Shown in pieces: positions 1 to 584 of a stretch of 35,281 nucleotides of DNA. The stretch's first letter is position 1. The number at the start of each line of letters is the position of its first letter. The DNA is from a bacterium (GTDB lineage: Bacteria > Elusimicrobiota > Elusimicrobia > Elusimicrobiales > UBA9959). The translations under genes and the position numbers were made by a program. The notes under the pieces are model-generated. The model did no database searches and was not told the origin of the DNA. It was given only the letters and a program-made list of their open reading frames with translations. Where the stretch lies: the NCBI GenBank assembly GCA_021789695.1, contig JAJYJH010000020.1:1-35281 (forward strand). The letters are read 5' to 3'.

Positions 1-72
1 CAGGAGCGGGCCCGGGCAGGCCATCGAGCGGGCGTCAACGACTTTAGCTGCTTTCACGTCTTTCAGGTCCAT
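1..72 (-). CDS. TusA/SirA-like sulfurtransferase, N-terminal 24 residues (runs off window)
   Basis: The visible start of a small sulfur-carrier protein. The reading frame from ATG at 72 encodes 24 residues and contains VDARSMACPGPLL, the family signature in which the cysteine of the CPxP motif (Cys19) carries a persulfide. A Shine-Dalgarno GGAGG lies about 7 bases before the ATG. The gene begins 16 bases after the stop of the ArsR-type repressor, so the two are probably cotranscribed. TusA proteins pass sulfane sulfur between proteins in the cytoplasm for tRNA thiolation, cofactor synthesis or sulfur oxidation. Which of these applies cannot be told without the genes to the left. The rest of the protein lies outside the window. 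Confidence 0.8.
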   Translation of the reverse strand, partial: MDLKDVKAAKVVDARSMACPGPLL

Positions 73-88
73 GATTTCCTCCGTTAAG

Positions 89-391
89 CTAAATATCGAA
101 ATTCGGGCAATAGAGCTTCTTGACCCTGGCTATAAGGTCAGCCAGGTTCGGGTCCTTGATGCTGTAGAAGATTCTGTTGCCGTCACGGCGCTTCTGAATC
201 AGGCCGCGGTCGGCCATTACGCGCAGGTGCTGGGAGATGTTGCCTTTAGTGGTACCCAGTTTCTTGACCAGCTCGTGCACGTACATCTCGCGCCGGAGCA
301 GCATACAGGTGATCATCAGGCGCGCCGGGTGCGCGACGCAGGCGAGGGTGGCCGAGATCTCCTCCGCGCGGGCGAGCATGACCTTCCTCAT
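89..391 (-). CDS. ArsR-family repressor of the persulfide-sensing (BigR/SqrR/YgaV) type
   Basis: A winged-helix repressor of about 100 residues. The recognition helix is in TTKGNISQHLRVMADRGLI and the wing in KRRDGNRIFYSI. There is no metal-binding CxC box. Two cysteines sit where BigR, SqrR and E. coli YgaV carry their redox pair: one in helix 2 (LMITCMLL, Cys29) and one at the C-terminus (KKLYCP, Cys95); a third is at Cys18. In that subfamily the pair forms a polysulfide bridge and releases DNA. Start choice: ATG 391 lies 7 bases after the -10 box and would be leaderless; ATG 379 has GAGGAAGG before it and gives 96 residues. A TTG at 427 is in frame but is part of the -35 box. The TusA-like gene follows by 16 bases, which fits a sulfide or persulfide response. 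Family assignment is firm; the ligand is inferred. Confidence 0.87.
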   Translation of the reverse strand: MRKVMLARAEEISATLACVAHPARLMITCMLLRREMYVHELVKKLGTTKGNISQHLRVMADRGLIQKRRDGNRIFYSIKDPNLADLIARVKKLYCPNFDI

Positions 392-397
392 ATATAG

Positions 398-419
398 TAG
401 TTTAGCAAATGCTAAACTA
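398..419. promoter_or_regulatory. Operator palindrome in the ArsR promoter
   Basis: A perfect inverted repeat TAGTTTAGCA-N2-TGCTAAACTA that fills the spacer and -10 box of the promoter at 399-427. A dimeric ArsR protein bound here would block RNA polymerase, so autorepression is the likely arrangement. The TAG stop codon of the lipoprotein gene is also part of this palindrome. Confidence 0.75.
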
Positions 420-427
420 GTTGTCAA
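399..427 (-). promoter_or_regulatory. Sigma70-type promoter of the ArsR-tusA unit
   Basis: On the minus strand a perfect -35 TTGACA (427-422), a 17-base spacer and TAAACT (404-399, 4 of 6 to consensus). Transcription would start about 391-393, at or just before the first ATG. The promoter lies inside the last codons of the upstream lipoprotein gene. Confidence 0.7.
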
Positions 428-584
428 AAACCCCGGATTTCCCGGCCGGCGCGTTTGCCGGGACGCGCGCGACGGCGCCGGAGGCCCTTGGTCTCGGGAT
501 GTTTTCCGGCGGTTTTTTCCTGGTATCGCACGCGGCGAGCGCGGCCAGAACGGCCAGCGCCGCGGCCGCGAGTTTTATCCGCAT
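417..584 (-). CDS. Small lipoprotein, 55 residues
   Basis: A short frame with a complete bacterial lipoprotein signal: MRIK, a hydrophobic stretch of about 14 Ala/Leu/Val residues, and the lipobox LAAC with Cys19 as the lipidation site. The mature part is about 37 residues, rich in Pro, Arg and Ala, and ends in GVFDN. A strong purine-rich ribosome site (GGGGGAGGGGGG) precedes ATG 584. It starts 18 bases after the asd stop, so it probably belongs to that operon. Its end overlaps the ArsR promoter and operator. I do not recognise a family. Small lipoproteins next to lysine-pathway genes are known elsewhere (LptM/YifL), but the mature sequence here does not match that family. Confidence 0.7.
   Translation of the reverse strand: MRIKLAAAALAVLAALAACDTRKKPPENIPRPRASGAVARVPANAPAGKSGVFDN

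Follow-up and report, generated by a model that had tools for sequence, protein, structure and literature searches.

ArsR-family repressors that sense sulfane sulfur, namely SqrR of Rhodobacter capsulatus, BigR of Xylella fastidiosa, YgaV of E. coli and HlyU of Vibrio, have been grouped as 'SSN cluster 4' (PMC10509353). YgaV regulates its own sulfurtransferase operon from an operator that lies over the promoter and controls one membrane rhodanese, YgaP. Its tetrasulfide was mapped to the peptides ILC31ML and KNVYC98P (PMC9774250). In Hyphomicrobium denitrificans, the ArsR repressors sHdrR and SoxR respond to sulfane sulfur and control a cytoplasmic sulfur pathway of the heterodisulfide-reductase-like type, the sHdr/lipoate-binding-protein sulfur-oxidizing system (PMC12423496, PMC10451225). 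Regulators related to sHdrR have been described as neighbors of sulfur genes, YeeE transporters and RND pumps (PMC12423496). Two further systems are comparable in gene content. Type II QmoABC consists of HdrA-like QmoA and QmoB and a QmoC-type membrane subunit in hosts without detectable AprA or DsrA; its role was stated to be unknown and further experiments were called for (PMC10504309). In the YTD cluster (yedE-tusA-dsrE), TusA is paired with DsrE in anaerobic sulfur metabolism (PMC12998232).

This work describes an arsR-type repressor gene and its operon in the genome (2.45 Mb, 63 contigs) of an uncultured member of the Elusimicrobiota. The window, i.e. the whole stretch of DNA analyzed (35,281 nt), is the entire contig C17, and the features of interest lie at its start (Table 1). 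We propose, with a probability of roughly 80%, that the gene encodes a SqrR/BigR/YgaV-type sulfane-sulfur-sensing repressor of its own operon, which runs from arsR to dsrE2. The proposal was obtained from sequence, namely from the cysteine pair, the operator, its overlap with the promoter, and the order and conservation of the operon. The sulfur-sensing switch itself is already known in kind, and what the initial annotation observed at positions 1 to 427 stands in place with small corrections.

The window protein shares about 40% sequence identity with YgaV and resembles it in being an ArsR protein with the same cysteine pair in near-identical peptides, at the head of an apparently autoregulated sulfurtransferase operon whose operator overlies the promoter; the window protein would, however, control a TusA/Qmo/DsrE cassette. 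With SqrR, BigR and HlyU, which are its closest solved structures, it has the fold, the cysteine pair and the absence of a metal site in common, but the targets differ. Whereas sHdrR and SoxR act on the sHdr system, the electron module of the window operon is Qmo-like (two HdrA-type subunits, FlpD and QmoC). The cassette departs from described type II QmoABC in its association with TusA, DsrE2 and a probable sulfane-sulfur repressor and in encoding FlpD/MvhD as a separate gene. It differs from the YTD cluster in its additional Qmo-like genes and in that YedE was not found in the operon or the genome. The latter also holds for YeeE in the genome, both being candidates raised by the initial annotation, although YeeE does follow a sister regulator in relatives.

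Table 1. Features of the regulatory region in the window and of a second module headed by regulators of the same clade.
Feature	Position	Strand	Basis or remark
tusA, 5' end (MDLKDVKAAKVVDARSMACPGPLL...), cut by the contig end	1..72	-	Shine-Dalgarno GGAGG, CPGP motif
arsR-type repressor gene, SqrR/BigR/YgaV-like	89..391	-	ORF and homology
α5 cysteine codon (C91), proposed bridge partner	107..109	-	aligns with YgaV C98
α2 cysteine codon (C25), proposed sulfur-sensing residue	305..307	-	aligns with YgaV C31
Operator, inverted repeat TAGTTTAGCA-AA-TGCTAAACTA	398..419	.	family core TTTAG-N6-CTAAA
-10 box TAAACT, made by the operator arm	399..404	-	promoter scan
-35 box TTGACA of the arsR promoter	422..427	-	promoter scan; conserved in most relatives
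Second module	L049:7986-12271; L143, L145, L154, L155		shared between phyla

Position 1 of the window is the end of contig C17, so the genes to its left were recovered from other contigs and genomes. The second gene, tusA, starts at position 72, 16 nt past the arsR stop, and about 24 of its codons lie in the window. Its reading as a TusA-type sulfur carrier is borne out by the CPGP motif in the window fragment and by a sibling (L032), in which the full-length protein has CPGP and matches PF01206 (4e-18, 65 bits against a cut-off of 28.6). In the sibling genome G007, which encodes an ArsR 97% identical to that of the window, the order is arsR-tusA-flpD-qmoA-qmoB-97aa-qmoC-dsrE-dsrE2, followed by a FadL-type porin (QmoA, 429 aa; QmoB, 596 aa; QmoC, 360 aa). 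The intergenic distances from flpD through dsrE are -4 to +1 nt, so that these genes overlap or adjoin, with larger gaps between arsR and tusA (16 nt) and between tusA and flpD (86 nt). In the window's own genome, contig C31 starts with the 3' end of qmoB, followed by the 97-aa gene, qmoC, a DsrE-type gene and DsrE2, with an assembly gap of about 3.6 kb separating C17 from C31. The operon is thus split over two contigs there, and its integrity in that genome rests on the sibling. The compact regulator-TusA operon of the initial annotation arose because the contig stops within tusA; such a unit was rejected in view of the sibling contig, with its Qmo/Hdr-like membrane complex and DsrE genes, and the operon comprises about nine genes. 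Among the other sulfur genes anticipated to the left of position 1, DsrE is present, and no SQR, rhodanese or persulfide dioxygenase was found in the operon.

The 97-aa protein between QmoB and QmoC (L070:96-389) is a predicted winged-helix protein whose N-terminal helix is long, and the sibling's version gave no family match in Pfam or NCBIfam; it is possibly an accessory subunit or a regulator of the complex. The stretch between qmoC and dsrE2 (L070:1513-1875, with its equivalents in congeners) varies in content, being occupied by a DsrE, a divergent DsrE, a CGGC-domain protein, both, or nothing. The operon showed no HdrB gene, and the sole CCG (HdrB-type) protein found in the window's genome is a 486-aa frame on contig C32, outside it. 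In many congeners, the tusA-flpD spacer contains a long, very stable hairpin (L108:10552-10720; about -70 to -118 kcal/mol). A conserved regulatory RNA, which this stability had brought into consideration, was rejected, as the same sequence is a multi-copy dispersed repeat in several congeners: the family has 15 to 45 matches in either orientation in six sampled congeners and 2 in the window's genome, and the hairpin is therefore not specific to the Qmo operon. A second promoter or attenuation at this gap is possible in many congeners.

The assignment of the electron-transfer genes to a Qmo type was made by description, not by phylogeny. The best matches of QmoA and QmoB are HdrA2-type NCBIfam models, and the sibling QmoC scores 137 bits against the cut-off of 300 of the QmoC equivalog NF038018. 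AprA (TIGR02061) gave no match in the window's genome (G000), and neither AprA nor DsrA was found above cut-off in 61 genomes. APS reductase and sulfite reductase were accordingly rejected as partners, and the Qmo-like complex is unlikely to serve an APS reductase. The cassette looks like type II Qmo, and the gene content, with TusA and DsrE2, points to carrier-bound sulfane sulfur as its substrate.

About 20 genomes of the genus show this operon order, as do other genera of the family. The arrangement is conserved within Elusimicrobiota and extends to other phyla: a Fibrobacterota MAG (L144) and a Spirochaetota MAG (L152) have the same order, in a Silvanigrella MAG (L132) HdrA-like genes come after arsR-tusA-flpD, and the genes of an Oligoflexia MAG (L141) are arsR-tusA-dsrE2. 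QmoC of this family (≥ 58% identity) occurs in 24 of 341 genomes of the phylum, 22 of which also encode the regulator. In G018, the 3.4-kb contig bearing qmoC stops short of the operon's 5' end, with a sister regulator elsewhere, and in G056 qmoC lies 2.4 kb from a contig end, too near to show the 5' end of the operon or a regulator. Apart from such contig-end cases, this qmoC was found only together with the regulator.

Regulators of the same clade also head other gene sets. A second module consists of arsR, a multiheme cytochrome c, a cytochrome b, YeeE and a YeeE with a rhodanese domain, and its hosts are Elusimicrobiota, Deltaproteobacteria, a Bdellovibrio MAG and Thermoanaerobaculum-type MAGs. 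Other sister regulators precede CoA-disulfide-reductase-like fusions, either with rhodanese, TusA and DsrE (L146, L158) or with rhodanese alone (L133), and one (L142) precedes an RND pump. TusA proteins also act in biosynthetic sulfur relay. The regulator could therefore be a true sulfane-sulfur sensor while the cassette serves persulfide detoxification or biosynthetic sulfur delivery and the Qmo-like genes use another substrate. This reading, which draws on that established role of TusA, on the likely detoxifying function of the fusions under several clade members and on the RND pump, appears rather unlikely: the overlapping or abutting genes from flpD to dsrE and the co-occurrence of qmoC with the regulator argue for one functional unit.

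The proposed link between the regulator and this unit is the operator. It has perfect 10-bp arms around a 2-nt AA center, so that 20 of 22 positions are symmetric; the 'perfect 22-base palindrome' of the initial annotation is correct for the arms and not for the center. The full 22-mer palindrome is present in some congeners (G050, G020). Within the window, the operator is the sole match at ≤ 3 mismatches, against an average of 0.04 in shuffled sequences. The promoter scan agrees with the annotated TTGACA-17-TAAACT promoter, which matches at 10 of 12 positions and was found once against 0.2 expected. The operator sits between and over the -35 and -10 boxes, its right arm providing the latter, and it thus covers the promoter of arsR itself, as had been noted. 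Within the genus, AGTTTAG-N6-CTAAACT (≤ 1 mismatch) occurs once per regulator-bearing genome, at the arsR promoter, with the exception of G004, which has none; the same search in congeners without the regulator gave no match in any of them. Taken over all phyla, the core TTTAG-N6-CTAAA is perfect within 200 bp upstream of 41 of 46 clade members and matches at ≥ 9 of 10 positions in 45 of 46; a perfect match was found in 1 of 920 Markov shuffles and upstream of none of 15 ArsRs from outside the clade. A 55-aa lipoprotein-like ORF (window 417-584) overlaps the arsR promoter and the operator edge with its 3' end, and a homologue is found in the same place in the sibling.

The E. coli ygaV promoter (L221:1184-1366) contains two adjacent copies of TTTAG-N6-CTTAA, each matching the operator core at 9 of 10 positions and ending 22 and 6 nt before the start codon (chance about 0.0008). 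They surround the mapped start site at -28, in the general region of the YgaV footprint. These copies tie the operator motif to a characterized family member. The deduced SqrR motif, ATTC-N8-GAAT (as quoted in PMC9774250), is absent from the window promoter.

Two candidate starts, ATG 391 and ATG 379, are plausible for the repressor, giving proteins of 100 and 96 aa, respectively, that end at position 89 on the minus strand; residues are numbered from ATG 379. The TTG start listed at 427 is unlikely because it lies inside the -35 box. ATG 391 is 7 nt past the -10 box (window 389-404), a spacing kept in most relatives, and this upstream ATG has no Shine-Dalgarno sequence in most of them, which suggests that the repressor may be translated from a leaderless mRNA. 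ATG 379 is preceded by AGGAAGG in the window, a sequence missing from most relatives.

The protein has three cysteines, at residues 14, 25 and 91. C25 and C91 match the cysteine pair of all four references (YgaV, SqrR, BigR and HlyU) and are invariant in alignments of 18 and 30 relatives. The window peptides ITC25ML and KKLYC91P are the counterparts of the two YgaV tetrasulfide peptides, with KKLYCP in place of KNVYCP around C91. In the distant clade members L143, L145, L154 and L155, the context of the C-terminal cysteine is shifted or lies outside the matched segment. Unlike SmtB, CzrA and the CxC-type ArsR paralogues of the genus, the protein has no CxC in α3 and no histidine metal ligands in α5. 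The annotated retention of both cysteines of the BigR/SqrR/YgaV pair and the lack of metal sites are hence confirmed.

The same pair could also form a plain disulfide, in which case the protein would be a general thiol or peroxide redox switch and the operon would answer oxidative stress, not sulfane sulfur. X. fastidiosa BigR has been reported to form a disulfide (PMC9774250), and the third cysteine, C14, is common within the genus. We nevertheless regard such a switch as improbable: relatives bearing the pair, e.g. HlyU, respond to persulfides, not to H2O2 or disulfides; the H2O2 sensor RexT uses two adjacent α3 cysteines, which the window protein does not have; and the neighboring genes are for sulfur transfer and electron transfer, with none for peroxide defense.

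The family placement is consistent with a sulfane-sulfur sensor. The best PDB sequence matches are YgaV (4e-16), SqrR (9e-15) and BigR (7e-14), with metal sensors ranking below. The AlphaFold2 model (pLDDT 93.5) has a winged-helix ArsR fold near characterized sulfane-sulfur sensors: its best Foldseek matches are states of SqrR, including the tetrasulfide (6o8n), followed by HlyU, BigR and YgaV. By sequence and predicted fold, the protein thus belongs with SqrR, YgaV, BigR and HlyU. In the maximum-likelihood tree it falls in a 40-sequence clade (support 99/98), separate from SmtB, NmtR and CzrA as well as from the CxC-type ArsR found in its own phylum; the branch joining the clade to YgaV, HlyU, SqrR and BigR is weak, and the order among the persulfide-sensor branches is not fixed. 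The named close relatives are Elusimicrobiota MAGs (Elusimicrobia/Elusimicrobiales). Against the NCBIfam BigR equivalog NF040642, the protein scores 76 bits, under the cut-off of 155, as do SqrR (100) and YgaV (57), with only BigR passing (171 bits). That it instead senses metals or arsenic in the manner of SmtB/CzrA/ArsR and is only incidentally close to tusA is highly improbable: the broad 'metalloregulator' model NF033788, which it passes, is also passed by YgaV, SqrR and BigR, and the protein lacks the α3 CxC and the α5 His ligands, is separated from the metal sensors by the tree and has sulfur carriers, not metal pumps, as neighbors.

Comparison with SqrR and YgaV thus did not place the protein with metal-sensing ArsR groups, and the annotated persulfide-sensor assignment is supported, as far as sequence allows, by the PDB matches, the fold match to the SqrR tetrasulfide, the position in the tree, and the conserved operator and sulfur gene neighborhoods (TusA, DsrE and DsrE2 in the operon; YeeE and rhodanese fusions near the regulators of relatives). 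The protein is very probably a SqrR/BigR/YgaV-type switch that senses reactive sulfur. By analogy with these proteins, the reduced dimer would bind TTTAG-N6-CTAAA at the promoter boxes and in the spacer between them, blocking RNA polymerase. When persulfides or polysulfides rise, sulfur atoms would bridge C25 (α2) and C91 (α5), and the bridged repressor, with its lower DNA affinity, would be released. The operon from arsR to dsrE2 would then be transcribed, TusA and the DsrE proteins would carry sulfane sulfur, and the Qmo/Hdr-like complex would link this sulfur to the quinone pool. This last step, in which electrons would pass between sulfane sulfur on its carriers and quinones, is suggested by gene content only.

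In the literature searched, no description of a TusA-QmoC-DsrE cassette under an ArsR regulator was found, although one may exist elsewhere, and neither the repressor clade, its operator nor its link to type II Qmo was found. The finding that a probable sulfane-sulfur repressor and TusA head such a type II Qmo cassette, with one gene order shared by several phyla, gives the cassette a testable role, the handling of carrier-bound sulfane sulfur. More tentatively, and as a possibility that we would not yet favor, a horizontally spread repressor clade with its own operator may run a persulfide-based electron chain from TusA/DsrE2 through type II Qmo to quinone that depends on neither Dsr, Apr nor sHdr. 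Its hosts would be Elusimicrobiota, Fibrobacterota, Spirochaetota and Bdellovibrionota-related bacteria. In that chain, TusA and DsrE2 would feed or drain persulfide sulfur, and the module would be self-contained and anaerobic. The conserved operator offers a simple handle for finding further targets of the clade in unannotated genomes, including the second module with its multiheme cytochrome, cytochrome b, YeeE and rhodanese.
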